This document shows, one piece after another, positions 1-64,000 of a stretch of 64,000 nt of DNA. The position numbers and the translations under genes were made by a program. Position 1 is the stretch's first letter; each line of letters starts with the position of its first letter. This DNA comes from Roridomyces roridus (lineage: Eukaryota; Basidiomycota; Agaricomycetes; Agaricales; Mycenaceae): contig JARKIF010000020.1 in assembly GCA_029378245.1 (NCBI GenBank), forward strand, positions 186,001 to 250,000. The letters are read 5' to 3'. The notes below the pieces were generated by a model. The model was given only the letters and a program-made list of their open reading frames with translations, did no database searches and was not told the DNA's origin.

Positions 1-77
1 GGTCAATCGGAGCTATAGCTACTGAGCTGAGGTCAGAGCACGGTGCAATTCCGGACAAATCTGACCCTAGGCGCAGA

Positions 78-1577
78 ATGCAATCATCTCCCTTCGTCCG
101 TCTTTTGGAATCGAATGACCCTCCGGACGAAGGAGAAATCGTGCTCATCCGCCGATTCCTGGATGAGAATCGCGCGCGGCTGGATGAACTTAGAACCATG
201 CCCCAAAGTACGCCGGAGGTCGATCAGCTAGAACGCTGCATCCAGGCGCACACCGCCCTCCTGTCTCCCATTCGCTGTGTTCCGGGCGAATTGCTCTCTG
301 AGATCTTCACCTATTCCTCGTACAAGCGGAAGGTCGGAACGCACCGCATTGATGCCCCACCGTGGCCTTTGGGCTATGTCTGCAGGACTTGGCGAAACGC
401 GGCACTCTCCACCTCACTCCTCTGGCGCCGCCTCACCATTTACGAGCCTCGGTCGACATCCGCTACCATCCACATGATATTCCCTCTATCCATGATTGAA
501 ACCCAGCTCGTGCTGTCTGGCAACGCTACTCTTGACATCTGGATGAATGTGCGCTCCCGCGGGTCGGCTGGCCACCATAAAGACCTGCTCCACGCACTCC
601 TTCAGCACTCTCATCGCTGGAGAGTCTTCAATATGTGTCTGCGAGGTTCGGAGGATCTAGTCCCTGCGCTCTCCGGCATGTACAACCGGATTCCGCAGCT
701 TCGCGAGTTCATATTGACCCAGGATAACTTGCAGCCTGGTGAAGGACACAGCTACCTCTCCGAGGCCCCCGCTCTACGCAGATTGATTCTCACAGGCAGC
801 ACTCTCCGTGCACGCTCTCCGTACATACCCACCGCCCCGTGGGATCAGATTATCCATTACCGCGCCTCGGGTACAGCGCAACAAAATTTTGACATCCTCC
901 TGGCCACGCCCGGACTAGTCCAATGTGGTCTGGGCTTCATAAAGGTGGATTCCGAGGTCGAGTACCACGCTGGAAGGCACGTCGTCCTCCCCTGTCTGCG
1001 TCGATTGAGGTTGGGCGTCGCGCCCGAACCGGCCCGTGATTTCTTGGCGCATATCACGGCGGGGCCTACGCTCGAAAGTCTGACCGTCTGCGCGCCTTAC
1101 ACTGCCGTCCCATCCTTCCTCCACCGCTCGTCCTCAGGCAGATTGACTTGCCTCTACCTAGATAATGACCATAGGAGCACCACAGCAGAGGAGATCGTCA
1201 ACGTCCTCAGAGACGCCCCGGTTGTCAGGACGTTGGGGATTTTGTGCGGTGCGCCGAGCGACCACGAGATGGGGCCGGTTTGGAGTGCGATGACTATCCA
1301 AGACCGTCAGGGGGCTGCGAATATTCTCTGCCCCGTGCTCAAGTCATTGGTGTATACATGCAGAGGCGAGCACGAGGCCATCGATCCGCCGTTCTTCCCC
1401 ATGGTGCAGTCACGCTGCAGCGAATATCAGGGTGGAGGTGCAACTCTCCACTCGCTCCGCGTCGTGGCCATCGACACTCTCCCTGAATTCGTGGAGAGCC
1501 TCAGGCAAGGAATGGTCTCTCTCCCGGACGAGTTGAAGTCTCAGGTGCTTGAGGGGAAGGAGGGGAGGCTTTTTTGA
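78..1577 (+). CDS. F-box protein of an expanded Agaricomycete family (copy 1)
   Basis: Single-exon gene for 499 aa. The F-box core is at about residues 63-110 (VPGELLSEIF, then a CRTWRNAAL block), followed by a long region of irregular leucine-rich segments that probably forms the substrate-binding face of an SCF ubiquitin ligase adaptor. The start is fixed by three paralogues here (43758, 50395 and 63744), which share MQSSPF/MPSSPV followed by LLESN and similar 5' leaders. Relative to the copy ending at 48382 there is a 1-nt deletion in the G-run near 1569, so this protein ends at GKEGRLF about seven residues early. F-box assignment is firm; substrate is unknown. Confidence 0.85.
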   Translation: MQSSPFVRLLESNDPPDEGEIVLIRRFLDENRARLDELRTMPQSTPEVDQLERCIQAHTALLSPIRCVPGELLSEIFTYSSYKRKVGTHRIDAPPWPLGYVCRTWRNAALSTSLLWRRLTIYEPRSTSATIHMIFPLSMIETQLVLSGNATLDIWMNVRSRGSAGHHKDLLHALLQHSHRWRVFNMCLRGSEDLVPALSGMYNRIPQLREFILTQDNLQPGEGHSYLSEAPALRRLILTGSTLRARSPYIPTAPWDQIIHYRASGTAQQNFDILLATPGLVQCGLGFIKVDSEVEYHAGRHVVLPCLRRLRLGVAPEPARDFLAHITAGPTLESLTVCAPYTAVPSFLHRSSSGRLTCLYLDNDHRSTTAEEIVNVLRDAPVVRTLGILCGAPSDHEMGPVWSAMTIQDRQGAANILCPVLKSLVYTCRGEHEAIDPPFFPMVQSRCSEYQGGGATLHSLRVVAIDTLPEFVESLRQGMVSLPDELKSQVLEGKEGRLF

Positions 1578-42255: not shown

Positions 42256-43758
42256 TTAGTTAGCGAGCTCCTTCAAGGCAGCCTCACCCGCCTTCCCCTC
42301 AAGCAAGTACGTTCTCAACCCATCCGGCAGCAAAACCATTCCATTTTCGACGCTCTCGACGAATTCCCGGGGAGTCTTTATCGCCACAACGCGGAGCGAC
42401 CCGAGATTCTGAGATTTATGGCAGCGCGACTGCACCATGGACCAGAACGACGCATCGATGTCCTTTTGCAGTCCCTTGCAGATACACACCAGTGATTTCA
42501 GCCGTGGGCACAGATTCCCGGTCGAATCATCGTCTAGATCTGCTATCGTCATCGCAGTCCACACTTCCCCCATGTCCGGTGCACCGCACGTTATCCCCAG
42601 GGTCTTGAGAGCGGGGGCCTGTTTGAGGACGTTTACGATCTCCTCCGCCGTTGTGACACTATAGTTATCATCCAGGAAGAGGCTGATCAAGGATTGGCCG
42701 GAGGAGGAGCGCTGGAGAAACGTTGGGACAGCGTCGTGTGGCGAGCGGACGGTTAGACTCTTGAGAGCAGTCCCGGCCGTGACGTGCTCCAAGATATTCG
42801 ATTCGCCAGAATCGCTCAACGTCAATCGACGCAGGTGCGGCAGGATGGCGTGTCTGCCGGCATCATACTCGGGAAGGTCAGACACCCCTACGAACCCCAA
42901 GTCGCATTCGACCAGTTTCGGCGCGGCGAGGAGGACGTCGAAATGTTGTTGTGCTGTATACGCGGCTCGGTAATAGGTAATTTGGTGCCAAGGAGCAGAA
43001 GGTATGCTCGGGGAGGGCACACTGAAATTGCTGTCTGTGAGGGTCAATTTACGCAGAGCAGGGGCCTTGGAGAGGTAGCTGTGTTGTTCGCCAGAGTTTA
43101 TGTTCTCCTGAGACAACGCGAATTTGTACAGCCGCGGAATCCGGTTGGCCATCCGGTTGTACATGCTGGCGAGCGCGGGCACAAGTTGCGCCGAGCCTCT
43201 GAAAGTCACACGCAGGCCGCTCCAGCGATGAGAATGCTGCAGGAGTGGGTCGAGCAGGGTTTTATGATGGTCAACCGACTCGCGGGACCGCACGTTGATA
43301 CGGACTTCTAGAGTTGCGATGCCGGATCGCGCCAGTTGGGTTTCAATCATGGATAGCGGATAAATCGTTTCGAGGATAGGGGTCTGAGGCTCGTGAATCC
43401 TGATGTGGCGCCAGAGGAATGGGGTAGAGAGCGCCGCATTGCGCCAGCTCCTGCAGATATGGCCCAGACGCCACGGCGGGGATTCAATGCGGCACGGTCC
43501 GACCCTCCGCTCGTGGGAGACATAGGTGAAGATATGGGAGAGCAATTCGCCTGGTATATGGCGAACGAGGGACAGAAGGGCGAGGTGCGCCTGGAAGGAG
43601 CGGTCCAACTCGTCGAGCTCTGGGCGTGGAAAAGGCAAGGCTTTCATTTCATTCAGCTGCTGGCGGTGCTCATCCAGGAACTGGTGGATGAGTGCGGTTT
43701 CTCGTTCGTCCAGAGGGTCATTGGATTCCAACAGATGAACGACTGGAGAAGATGGCAT
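42256..43758 (-). CDS. F-box protein, copy 2
   Basis: Intronless, 500 aa. Start at 43758 (MPSSPVVHLLESND) by alignment with copies 1 and 3; the in-frame Met at 43815 adds 19 unlikely residues. F-box core IPGELLSHIFTY, then CRSWRNAALSTPFLWRHI, MIETQLARSGIATLEV, YLSKAPALRKLTLTDSN and LFLDDNYSVTTAEEIVNVL, the same block order as the other copies. It reads open to a C-terminus of EGKAGEAALKEL. Presumed SCF adaptor; substrate unknown. Confidence 0.88.
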   Translation of the reverse strand: MPSSPVVHLLESNDPLDERETALIHQFLDEHRQQLNEMKALPFPRPELDELDRSFQAHLALLSLVRHIPGELLSHIFTYVSHERRVGPCRIESPPWRLGHICRSWRNAALSTPFLWRHIRIHEPQTPILETIYPLSMIETQLARSGIATLEVRINVRSRESVDHHKTLLDPLLQHSHRWSGLRVTFRGSAQLVPALASMYNRMANRIPRLYKFALSQENINSGEQHSYLSKAPALRKLTLTDSNFSVPSPSIPSAPWHQITYYRAAYTAQQHFDVLLAAPKLVECDLGFVGVSDLPEYDAGRHAILPHLRRLTLSDSGESNILEHVTAGTALKSLTVRSPHDAVPTFLQRSSSGQSLISLFLDDNYSVTTAEEIVNVLKQAPALKTLGITCGAPDMGEVWTAMTIADLDDDSTGNLCPRLKSLVCICKGLQKDIDASFWSMVQSRCHKSQNLGSLRVVAIKTPREFVESVENGMVLLPDGLRTYLLEGKAGEAALKELAN

Positions 43759-45271
43759 TCTCTGTCGGCCGTCAGACAAGAGATTTGAATTCCACTGTGC
43801 ACTCACCCGGGTCAATGTGAACGGCCTGGTATCGTGGACGAAGGAGAGACAAAGGAGGGAGATGACTTATGACTCAGATCATGATGCTCGATCGACGGAT
43901 CGCAGGCGAGTTGACATCATTGATCCAATACAATGCCGAACAAGGGGTGGTACCGGATCAAAGTCGGTACAGGTATTCAAACCTTGCTCAGCAGGCGAGA
44001 TACAGAATTGGTTGCACAAAGATATAGATACCGTTACGCTGGAGGATTAGATGGGCAAAAAACAGTCACGTGTGACCCCGATAACCCCGATTACCCGAAT
44101 CGAACAGGGCGGCCGGGTAAGCGGGGCCAATGGCAAGGACAATCTACGTGCCTTGCATTTGGGATTGCAGTCGACAGCAACACGCACGGTGGGAGATGAA
44201 AGAGGATAAATTTCGACCGGATGGCTCGATTGAACGGGTCATCGGAATGATCACACCGGGTCGCAGTATTCAGACTTCAGTTTTGGAAAGATAGACTCAG
44301 GTCGACGCGGTATGTTCGGCAAATAAAAGGACGGCGAGCAGTGTATGTTAAAGGATAGCGAGCCGCAGAGCGCCAGCAAAGACGATGTGGGGAGAGCTCC
44401 GGGATTCGCCCGAGGTGAGAGACTAGTCAGGTACAGACTCTTTTGAGAGCAAAGGACAGTTGCTTTTAATATGACCCTGGTCGAAAAAAGGCGTCAGTTT
44501 TAGGATCGAAAGCTCGAGCAAGACGGCACACGCACGTACTCCCCGCAAGCGTGGCATCGACGGGGCATTGGACAATCTTTGGATATATGACCCTCGTATC
44601 CACAATGAAAACTGGCAGAATGAGGAGAGAGCCCTCTGAGGCAAAACAACGACGCACCAGATCTTGGGTGCGTTCCTCAGCTCATTCAGCCATTGGGAGT
44701 CGACAGTAGGGCAGTCCACGCGCTGAATTGTAAGAGAAATCAGCCAAGGAGAGTCGGGATGAGAGGGTGCGATGGCGCACCTTGTGTCCCTCGATACCAC
44801 ATGCATGACACACTACGGGGTATGCGCACTCTTCGACGAGATGCCCTGGTTCCCAGCCTGTTGTCCGATGGTTGAGATGACGAGCTCATGGGAGTGACCA
44901 CCTACAATTCTTACTTTGAGCCGTCAGTAAGGTAAGTAGTCTAAGATGACACGGCCGGAGCACGTACTTACCACATTTTGGCGAAGCGGTTGCGGGAGGA
45001 GAGACCTCGGATAGTCAAAGAAAAGGTACCCGGCAAACGCCGCGTGGTTCTGCGGTGAGTGTAGGCACGTAGAGCTCGGATCAAGAAGGACATGGTGGTG
45101 GCATTTGGCAAGAAGAGATTTTCGGATCAAAAAAACACGTGCACGCAGCACAGCCTCGTCGCGGAGTCTCCTCCTGCCACCACTCAGCACTGCGCCCGCG
45201 GTAAAAGCAGCGCGCGCCGCCTGTCGATCTCTGTAAAGTTGACGCCGTCTGCCTTCCTCTCTGAATTCAAG
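43759..45271. other. Intergenic, one tRNA-like site
   Basis: A CCCGAATCGAACAGGG motif near 44097 belongs to the dispersed tRNA-like family. The (-) frame at 44423-44806 has no recognisable domain. Nothing else is supported. Confidence 0.4.
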
Positions 45272-48381: not shown

Positions 48382-50395
48382 TCATACAAAAGTAAAGTCG
48401 CTCAAAAAAGCCTCCCCCTCCTTTCCCTCAAGCACCTGTGACTTGAACTCGTGCGGCAGTGAACCCATCCCCTGCTTGACACTCTCCACGAATTCCGGGT
48501 GAGTGTCGATGGCCACGACGGGGAGAGACTCGAGAATCACGCTTCCCGCGGGAATTTCCCCACAGCGCGACTGCACCATAGGGAAAAACGACGCGTCGAC
48601 GGCCTCGTGTTCGCCCTTGCATGCATACACCAGCGATCTGAGCACGGGGCAGATATTATTCGCTGCCGCCTTCATCGTCATCGTCATCGCACTCCACACC
48701 TCCTCCATCTCGTTGTTCATCGGGTTGCCGCACGAAATCCCCAACGTCCTGAGAGCCTGAGTTTCTCTGAGGACTTTGACGATCTCCTCCGCCGTCGTGT
48801 TCATATAATCGTCGTCCAGGTAGAGCTGAGTCAGGAATCTGCCTGAGGAAGAGCGGCGGAGGAACGATGGGACGGCAGTGTAAGGCGCACAGACGGCGAG
48901 ATTTTCGAGTGCAGGCCCCGCCGTGACGTGCGTCAAGAACTGCGCTTCGGACCCCGCACCCAGTTTCAAGTGACGAAGGTGCGGGAGGACGGCGTGTTTG
49001 CCGGCAGGATAATCGACAAGGGGCTCCACCCTTATGAAGCCCAGACCACATTGGACTAGCCTGGACGCGGTCAGGAGGACGTCGAAATTTTGTTGCGCTG
49101 TACACGAGGCGCGGTAATGGGTAATCTGATGCCACGGGGCGGTGAGTACGTACGGAGATCGTAAACGGAGATTGCTGTCTGTTAGGAGCAATTTGCGCAG
49201 AGCGGGGGCCGTGGATAGGTAGCTGTGTCCTTCAACAGGCTGGATGTTGACCTGGATTAATACGAATTCGCGGAGCTGTGGAATTCGGTCGTGCAGGCCG
49301 GACAACGCGAGGATAGGTTTCGCCACACCTCTGATATGCGCATGGAAGACACAGCACCGATGAGAATGCTCGAGAAGAGCGTCGAACTAGGGCTCTCTGG
49401 TGGTCAGCCGAACCGCGCAATCGCAGATTCATACAGATTTCGAGAGTTGCGTTGCCGGATCGGGCGAGTTGGGTTTCAATCATGGACAGTGGGTAGATTT
49501 TGTCGAGGGCAAGGGACCGACTCCCAGGCTCGTAAATTGTGAGGCAGCGCCAGAGCAATGAGGTAGAGAGGTGCCGTGTTCCGCCAGGTCCTACATATAT
49601 GGCCCAGGAGCCACGGTGGAGCACCAATGCTGCGCGTGCCCACCTTCCGCGTGTACGAGAGATGGGTGAAGATCTCGTAGAGCAACTCTCCAGGTATACG
49701 GCGAACGGGAGACAGAAGGGCGGTGCGCGCCTCGATGCAGCGTTCTATCTCGTCAAGTGGCGGGTTGGTATGGGGCATGGCTCTGAGTTCATCCAGCCGC
49801 TCGCGATTTTCATCCAGGAATCGACGGATGAGCCAAGGGGCTTCAAAAATGCGAATTTCTTATATGGGGTCTCCAATGTGTGATGTAGACTCCTGGGAGT
49901 ATATGAAAAATTATTTGAGGCCAATCGGCCCAGCGGTTGTTGAGGAGGAATGAAAAAGATTATTACTATATCGGTGGGGAGGGGTAGGTACAGCCACTAC
50001 CAAATACGGTAACTTCATGAGTAGGAGTTTGCGGGAGTTCGATTCAGTAAGCCGGCAAAAGTTTGGAGCATTTTTTATTCGCTACTTGAACACCTTTTGA
50101 GTGGCCTGATAGACTCAACAGGCATTATGTAGACATAAAATATATATTCCTTCGATACTGGGGCACTTGTGTAGTGTACTGAGGCGATGTTGCCCGGAGA
50201 TAATGCCTAAAAAGGAAGATCTGATGGCATCGATCATTACGTAGGGAGGGAGGGTCCTCGGACCCTCTGAAAAAAAAAAATTGGAAGGTATGTTACATTT
50301 TTCTTATCGTTGAAGCCCCTTGGGATGAGCACGATTTCTTCCTCATCGGGAGGGTCATTCGATTCCAAAAGATGGACGAATGGGGAAGACTGCAT
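48382..50395 (-). pseudogene. F-box pseudogene (copy 4) split by a hAT-like MITE
   Basis: The gene begins at 50395 (MQSSPFVHLLESNDPPDEEEIVL), is broken after the codons for VLI by a 489-bp insertion (49834-50322), and resumes with RRFLDENRERLDELRAMP. The F-box block IPGELLYEIFTHLSY is intact, but the frame shifts after CRTWRNT (about 49570) and again after the SADHQRAL block (about 49375), then runs on as RIPQLREFVLIQ to a stop at 48382. It therefore carries at least two frameshifts plus the insertion. The nearest readable relatives are copies 1 and 3. Confidence 0.88.
49834..50322. mobile_element. hAT-like MITE inside the F-box pseudogene
   Basis: Perfect 13-bp terminal inverted repeats CAAGGGGCTTCAA (49834-49846) and TTGAAGCCCCTTG (50310-50322). 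The 8-bp word GGATGAGC flanks it on both sides (49826-49833 and 50323-50330), and the paralogues show this word only once at that codon position, so the insertion is proven by comparison. CA-initial short TIRs with an 8-bp target-site duplication are the hAT signature. The interior is A/T-rich with no transposase frame. Confidence 0.9.
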
Positions 50396-62232: not shown

Positions 62233-63744
62233 TTACATGGTGGAATCCTTCAGGAAAGCCGCAGCGTCCTCATCCTCGAGCAGCGCTGCATCCAACGCGT
62301 CCGGCAGCAAACGCATGCCCTGCGCGATGCTCTCGACGAATTCACGCATACTGCCAATCGCCAAGACACGAAGCGACTCGAAACTCGCTTCGCCGGCCAG
62401 AGGTTCCCTGCAGCGCGAGTGCACCATGGGGAAGAAGGACGCCTCGATTTCCCCGTGCTGTTCCGAGTTCCTGGAGATGTACACCAGCGATCTGAGCTGC
62501 GGGCAGAGAATATTCGGACCCGAATGCTCATCTGCTATGGTCATCGCAGTCCAAACTTGGCCCATCTCGTGCCTTGGTGCGCCGCACGATACCCCCAACG
62601 TCTTGAGAGCCGAAGCCTCCTTGAGGATGTCGACGATCTCCTCCGCCGTCGTGACCGTATAGTCATCATCCAGGAAGAGGCGGGTCAGGAATTGCCCCGA
62701 GGAGGAACGGTGAAGGAAAGACGGGACAGCGGTGTACGGCGCGCGGACGGTGAGATCGTTGAGGGCAGGGCCCGCCGTGACGTGCGTCAAGAAATCCGGT
62801 TCGGGTGAGTCACCCCACGTCAATCGACGCAGGTGCGAGAGAACGGCGTGTTTGCCAGCGCGATAATCACCACCCCAGTCCCTCCAAAGGAAACCCAGAC
62901 TGCATTCGACTAGGTTGGGCGCAGCGAGGAGGACGTCGAAGTGTTGTTGCGTTGTACACGTGGCTCGGTAATGGGTAATCTGATGCCACGGGACGGAGGG
63001 AATGTAGGGGGACTCTTTATCGAGAGTGCTGTCCGTGAGGGTTAATTTGCGTAGAGCGGGGGCTTCGGAGAGGTAGCTGTGTATTTCGCCAGGCCGCATG
63101 TTACTCTGGGTCAATAAGAACTCGCAGAGCAGAGGAATACGGTTGTGCATGCCGGAGAACGCGGGCACAAGTTCTGCCGAGCCTCTGAGATGCACCCGGA
63201 AGACTCTCCAGCGATGAGAGTGCTGGAGGAGGGCGTGGAGCAGGGCCTGATGATGGTGAGTCGACCGGCGGAACTGCAGATTGAAACATATTTCAAGAGT
63301 TGCGTTGCCGGATCGAGCGAGTTGCGTTTCAATCATGGATATTGGGCAGATTTTGTGCAGGGCAGGGGACTGAGGCTCGTATATTTTGACGAGGCGCCAT
63401 AGAATCGAGGTGGAGAGCGCCGCGTTCCGCCAACCCCGGCAGACATGGCCCAAAAGCCATGGTGGAGCATCGATATTGCGCCGTCCGACCTTCCGCTTGT
63501 ATGAGAGATGGATGAAGATCTCGGAGAGCAACTCCCCAGGTATCCGGCGAATGGGTGACAGAAGGGCGGTGTGCGCCTCAATACAGCATTCTAGCTCGTT
63601 TATCTCCGGGGTCGGATACGGCAAGGATTTGACTTCGTGCAGTCGCTCGCGTTTTTCGCCCAGAAATCGGCGGATGAGTCCGATTTCTCGCTCGTCGGGA
63701 GGCTCATTGGATTCCAAAAGGGGGTCGAATGGGGAGGATTGCAT
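62233..63744 (-). CDS. F-box protein, copy 3
   Basis: Intronless, 503 aa, starting MQSSPFDPLLESNEPPDERE. F-box core IPGELLSEIFIHLSYKRKVG, then CRGWRNAALSTSILWRLV, MIETQLARSGNATLEICFN, HSHRWRVFRVHLRGSAELV, YLSEAPALRKLTLTDS and LFLDDDYTVTTAEEIVDIL. It is the best-preserved copy of the family and the reference for spotting lesions in copies 1 and 4. Presumed SCF substrate adaptor. Confidence 0.88.
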   Translation of the reverse strand: MQSSPFDPLLESNEPPDEREIGLIRRFLGEKRERLHEVKSLPYPTPEINELECCIEAHTALLSPIRRIPGELLSEIFIHLSYKRKVGRRNIDAPPWLLGHVCRGWRNAALSTSILWRLVKIYEPQSPALHKICPISMIETQLARSGNATLEICFNLQFRRSTHHHQALLHALLQHSHRWRVFRVHLRGSAELVPAFSGMHNRIPLLCEFLLTQSNMRPGEIHSYLSEAPALRKLTLTDSTLDKESPYIPSVPWHQITHYRATCTTQQHFDVLLAAPNLVECSLGFLWRDWGGDYRAGKHAVLSHLRRLTWGDSPEPDFLTHVTAGPALNDLTVRAPYTAVPSFLHRSSSGQFLTRLFLDDDYTVTTAEEIVDILKEASALKTLGVSCGAPRHEMGQVWTAMTIADEHSGPNILCPQLRSLVYISRNSEQHGEIEASFFPMVHSRCREPLAGEASFESLRVLAIGSMREFVESIAQGMRLLPDALDAALLEDEDAAAFLKDSTM

Positions 63745-64000
63745 TCTTGTCCCAGTTTCAGTTTTGTCTGGAATCGCACAAGTACTGTGCAGTGTGCTCT
63801 CACCTCAGCTCCGATATCGTGGATGAAGGCAAGAAGGAGGATTGTGACGAAGTGTTGTAACCATCATGATCCGCTGGCCGAGTCATATGAATCGCCACGT
63901 GACATTTCTTCCTTCCGCCCATCACCAGCTTGGCCAAGGCTTTGGCTTGGTGAGTGGACCGAGTACAATCCAAGTTTTGGGCTAATCTTTCACAGGCAAA
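63745..64000. other. 5' flank of F-box copy 3
   Basis: The leader (GATTCCAGACAAAACTGAAA on the minus strand) resembles the leaders of copies 1 and 4, showing that the duplicated unit includes upstream sequence. No other feature seen before the window ends. Confidence 0.4.

Follow-up and report, generated by a model that had tools for sequence, protein, structure and literature searches.

The window, by which we mean the whole 64-kb stretch of Roridomyces roridus DNA that was analyzed, contains an F-box-like/LRR gene on the minus strand (48382..50395, limits taken from the translation of the joined flanks), which is interrupted near its 5' end by a MITE of 489 bp. The MITE occupies positions 49834..50322, read on the plus strand, and we assign it below to a non-autonomous P-superfamily type. 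It begins with the 13-bp terminal inverted repeat (TIR) CAAGGGGCTTCAA (49834..49846, plus strand) and ends with the corresponding repeat on the minus strand (50310..50322). Directly outside these repeats lies an exact 8-bp target-site duplication, GGATGAGC, at 49826..49833 and 50323..50330. The first-pass annotation of this DNA had reported the coordinates, the perfect repeats and the identical flanks, and all of them hold on re-reading the sequence. It had also described an A/T-rich body without a transposase; the G+C content is indeed 43%, lower than the 54% of the window, and the 489 bp contain no reading frame for a transposase. With its small size, lack of coding sequence, TIR ends and multiple copies (19 were found in the genome), the insert is a MITE in the usual sense. 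Inverted pairs of 13-bp words spaced 300-700 bp apart occur three times in the window, and one of the three has identical 8-bp flanks; two of these pairs are registers of the MITE's own 14-bp inverted match.

Three F-box-like paralogues in the window show the site without the insert. They are located at 3..1574 (plus strand), 42259..43866 (minus strand) and 62236..63804 (minus strand), and their open frames of 523-536 amino acids run through the MITE site with a single copy of the octamer, which agrees with the duplicated word at 8/8, 7/8 and 7/8 bases, respectively. The F-box-like Pfam score is above cut-off in one of the three. The empty site had been described earlier and is confirmed by these frames. 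The duplication, together with paralogues that cross the site uninterrupted with one octamer, shows that 49834-50322 was inserted with duplication of an 8-bp target site and is not a chance arrangement.

When the flanks of the MITE are joined, the host gene still contains further frame shifts away from the insert, which the first-pass annotation had not mentioned. The gene is therefore a pseudogene on two counts, and it is decaying independently of the MITE. When the assembly was searched with 500 bp of the left flank, no further near-identical host locus turned up; the search returned eight paralogues with 71-80% identity, all on C113, the contig of the window. Including the query itself, the nine matches of this piece lie at C113 coordinates 174384, 179786, 186143, 229223, 235334, 249190, 260520, 418336 and 771091, several of them inside the window.

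A DNA search of the genome with the MITE gave at least 24 matches. These comprise 19 family copies, a terminus of a large element (C487) and a distant relative (C334). The first-pass annotation had proposed searching the genome for TIR pairs with 8-bp duplications, and at least 19 copies of this kind were found, so the family is repeated. The copy number is a lower bound; 16 copies are full length and three are interrupted. Exact 8-bp duplications flank 19 of the 19 copies, and both 13-bp TIRs are perfect in 18. The TIR word itself occurs 20+22 times genome-wide, compared to 0+1 times for a reversed control. Unpaired TIR words in L090, L091 and L092 were considered as relatives of the large element and rejected, since they have no similarity beyond the word; L090 and L092 look like one repeat because 73 bp are identical in both.

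The 16 full-length copies are 92% to 100% identical in pairwise comparisons. Two of them, L014 and L015, have the same sequence over 487 bp but sit between flanks that are only about 26% alike. This identity at unrelated sites indicates recent movement of the family, as had been suspected from the perfect ends of the window copy. The window copy itself is not among the youngest; its closest relative is 98% identical. L016 and L018 have their duplication in common, with one flank 99.8% identical and the other 44% (ungapped), and they are probably one event that was copied together with its surroundings. Among the interrupted copies, L026:1001-1683 has an internal tandem duplication, in which MITE positions 175-368 are present twice. 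The other two, L025:1061-2316 and L027:1354-2792, are each interrupted by an additional 1.3-1.4 kb, which possibly represents nested insertions.

The large element on C487 was found as a far-apart pair of the same TIRs at C487:51987-59313 (L089:988-8314). It is 7,327 bp long, has an exact 8-bp duplication, GCACCGTA, and is the single coding element found to share the ends of the MITE. Its minus strand encodes a long protein which, by eye, is zinc-finger-like at both ends. This protein has no convincing Pfam match, and sequence searches of the PDB gave no match. Two R. roridus proteins, P0131 and P0147, match this partner element (L089) and a related locus, L095 on C90, respectively, exon by exon. 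The public record of the partner carries the label 'partial', and the limits of its 5' exon are not settled; on both grounds the partner may be inactive. The public gene model treats 675 bp of the element (L089:2764-3438), with 7.7 copies of a 10-bp tandem repeat, as an intron.

Of 7993 candidates scored in a search of 5.8 billion proteins, 388 were relatives at E<=0.001; a profile search gave at least 120 relatives at E<=0.01, and a search with P0201 gave 73. Nearly all relatives among the matches listed are labeled hypothetical or uncharacterized, some are labeled as PHD zinc-finger proteins and one as a ubiquitin hydrolase. Those among the matches listed that carry an organism name are from mushrooms and their kin, the Agaricomycetes. 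The protein of L095 is 53% identical to that of the partner. No TIR pair flanked by an 8-bp duplication could be found in L095, where the right end alone resembles the family (L095:7701, CAAGGGGTATCAAAGATAAGAG). Among the relatives in this genome, which also include loci on C27 and C312, the check for ends covered L089 and L095.

The nature of the transposase was addressed through predicted structures of homologues of the partner protein (P0131 itself not being among them). The models show a P-type fold: the best match is the transposase of the Drosophila P element, with the hAT transposase Hermes far behind. They also place a predicted insertion domain of P type between beta5 and alpha4. The [C/D](2)H motif by itself is not known to be unique to P. 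The full catalytic string of the P RNase H domain reads D, D, [C/D](2)H, E (PMC8230255), and this string is conserved here, with the five residues kept in both P0131 and P0147. Pfam families PF21787/PF21789 match P0174 above cut-off, and 11 of the 37 members scanned match them at E up to 0.1. There was no P-type Pfam match in P0131 or P0147. A genome scan with PF21787 gave no match, and its 14 controls were equally without one. THAP domains were found in none of the 37 members (many of which start late), the 15 proteins of two other scans and five translated pieces of L089; according to PMC7776569, fungi are without THAP domains. The family proteins also have a long C-terminal extension with zinc-binding and beta-rich parts.

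The last features raise the question of whether this transposase should be filed as a superfamily of its own beside P, as a branch of a P/Transib/RAG-like group. By sequence the proteins are hardly recognizable as P, most scanned members fall under the Pfam cut-offs, the THAP domain is missing and the C-terminal extension is long. The fold match to the P element, however, is about 10 Z units above those to Transib and RAG in two lineages, and the D(2)H signature and the beta5-alpha4 insertion agree with the description of P (PMC8230255, PMC7776569). We consider a separate superfamily unlikely; it overlaps with our preferred explanation because the mechanism would be identical and the filing alone would differ.

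Our preferred explanation, which we hold to be very likely, is that the insert is a short non-autonomous cut-and-paste transposon of the P superfamily moved by a P-type transposase. This differs from the first-pass annotation, which had called it a hAT-like MITE inside an F-box gene. The non-autonomous MITE, its insertion into the F-box gene and the repeated family are upheld; the hAT affiliation is not. Several points fit mobilisation by a hAT transposase of this genome. MITEs of hAT have 8-bp duplications and short TIRs, are non-coding and form repeated families, and ends starting with CA fit hAT as well. The hAT dimerisation domain is matched at 32 places in the genome, including one on the contig of the partner (C487:75873-76058), and the homologue P0089 has a weak match to PF05699 (E 0.12, under cut-off). 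Pfam scans of the 37 homologues and of pieces of L089, however, gave no PF05699 match above cut-off, and the coding element with these ends encodes a P-type transposase. When 30 of the 32 hAT-domain loci were scanned over about 1.5 kb on each side, none was bracketed by the ends of the MITE. The autonomous hAT element with the same ends that had been expected was thus not found in the scanned loci. The single end word seen near a hAT domain (L067) marks an end of a sister MITE of the kind described below.

The target sites do not favor hAT either. Exact 8-bp duplications were found throughout the family, also in the partner and in L094, but they are common to P and hAT and so do not discriminate between the two. 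The target pattern of Hermes is nTnnnnAn (PMC10368747). It is matched by one of 19 duplications in the family and by none of 10 in the sister elements, although hAT groups may differ among themselves. The set of 19 family sites comprised 18 MITEs and the partner, with L018 and L094 left out. In these sites the first base of the octamer is G in 14 (binomial P 1.5e-5) and the last base is C in 10 (binomial P 0.010), where both values are per position and eight positions were inspected. This G...C shape is reminiscent of the target consensus of Drosophila P. Altogether we regard mobilisation by a hAT transposase as very improbable.

The ends of the MITE and of the partner were also compared beyond the TIRs. 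The right 84 bp of the MITE (50239..50322, minus strand) are like the left end of the partner, with 88% identity for the window copy and 90% for the family consensus; the score of the roughly 71 bp that lie past the TIR was reached by 0 of 1000 shuffles. For the left end of the MITE and the right end of the partner, 46 of 1000 shuffles scored as high. The idea that the left end is a copy of the right end of the partner was therefore rejected, as no convincing likeness extends beyond the TIR. Because its left end is not convincingly like the partner beyond the TIR, the MITE is not simply L089 with its interior deleted. This one-sided likeness also bears on the possibility that the MITE belongs to another superfamily with 8-bp duplications, such as Zisupton/KDZ or a Mutator-like group, and that its P-like end arose by convergence. 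A left end that matches the partner only within the TIR would suit such an origin; in addition, Zisupton elements have 8-bp duplications and are present in Agaricomycetes (PMC12730594). The long match at the right end argues against convergence. Furthermore, no KDZ or Mutator family was present among the Pfam matches of the 37 homologues; a KDZ model is included in Pfam. We regard this explanation, too, as very improbable.

Under the preferred P-type explanation the MITE would be mobilised in trans. The transposase would be supplied from another place in the genome, by an element like the 7,327-bp one on C487, and would recognize the ends that start with CAAGGGG. The MITE, contributing nothing more than these ends, would then be excised by a D-D-E RNase H active site that is interrupted by a P-type insertion domain. 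Joining to a new site with an 8-bp stagger would produce the 8-bp duplication. We infer that the MITE was moved by the L089 transposase or one closely related to it and, by analogy, that the biochemistry would be that of Drosophila P.

P elements are a textbook animal transposon. The Drosophila P element (PDB 6p5a, 6pe2) resembles the present family in its 8-bp duplications and in the D-D-D(2)H-E RNase H domain with a helical insertion domain, which is a prediction in our case. It differs in having TIRs of 31 bp and a length of 2.9 kb (PMC7776569), whereas here the TIRs measure 13 bp, or about 21 bp in the sister classes, and the partner is 7.3 kb long; unlike Drosophila P, the family has no detected THAP domain and has the long C-terminal extension. 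The zebrafish Pdre2/THAP9 element is similar in its 13-bp TIRs starting with CA and its 8-bp duplications (PMC10983969), compared by description, but the animal protein has a THAP domain. Nearer by host are the P elements of rust fungi in Repbase, P-1_MLP, P-2_MLP, P-N1_MLP, P-N2_MLP and P-1_PSt (PMC3164196). They too come from basidiomycetes, with autonomous and non-autonomous members and 8-bp duplications, although the rusts are Pucciniomycetes and not mushrooms and the comparison is again by description, not by sequence. Since they have been in print since 2011, P elements in fungi are not new, although few fungi have so far been reported to carry them. The hAT MITEs differ from the present one in that its partner transposase is not hAT and its target pattern is unlike that of Hermes.

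Literature searches, with most subscription papers and Repbase outside their scope, found no account of P elements in mushrooms, and the terms 'P element' and 'P superfamily' gave no hit in two papers on fungal transposable elements (PMC6416283, PMC4905642). What may be new here is a non-autonomous P element in a mushroom, together with a THAP-less transposase lineage. If this assignment is true, a THAP-less P family spread over Agaricomycetes, whose members have so far been labeled 'hypothetical proteins' and mostly lack Pfam domains, would widen the superfamily. It would also supply independent sequences for asking which parts of P are essential, such as the GTP site, end recognition and THAP; the P transposase is described as unique among known transposases in having a GTP-binding insertion domain (PMC7776569). 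To equate an 8-bp duplication in a fungus with hAT is a common shortcut that is corrected here, and other mushroom MITEs with such duplications may belong to the P-type group. A broader proposal, which we offer tentatively and which may well prove too wide, is that the Agaricomycetes contain a large unrecognized P lineage. In this lineage THAP would be replaced by other zinc fingers, the C-terminal extension would be chromatin-reader-like, and recent MITE bursts would have been filed as hAT or left unclassified. Besides zinc-binding parts and PHD-named features, the predicted extension includes a beta domain whose BAH-like match is faint.

The family is accompanied by sister classes of ends, for which L094 and the right end of L095 served as entry points. 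The MITEs of these classes, whose ends are TAY and CAC variants, are also flanked by 8-bp duplications. The word CAAGGGGTAYCAAA occurs 86 times in the genome, with no occurrence of the reversed control, and forms 34 pairs that are 403-472 bp long. Ends like CAAGGGGNNTCAAAGATAAGA with up to two mismatches gave 190 matches over all classes, including that of the MITE itself, against three for the control. In the 10 sister elements whose ends were read, nine duplications are exact and one has a single mismatch; L106 and L112 may be one event because they have their octamer in common. One further pair of ends, CAAGGGGCACCAAAGATAAGA at C190:432913-434580, lies 1.67 kb apart and is possibly a larger member of the CAC class.
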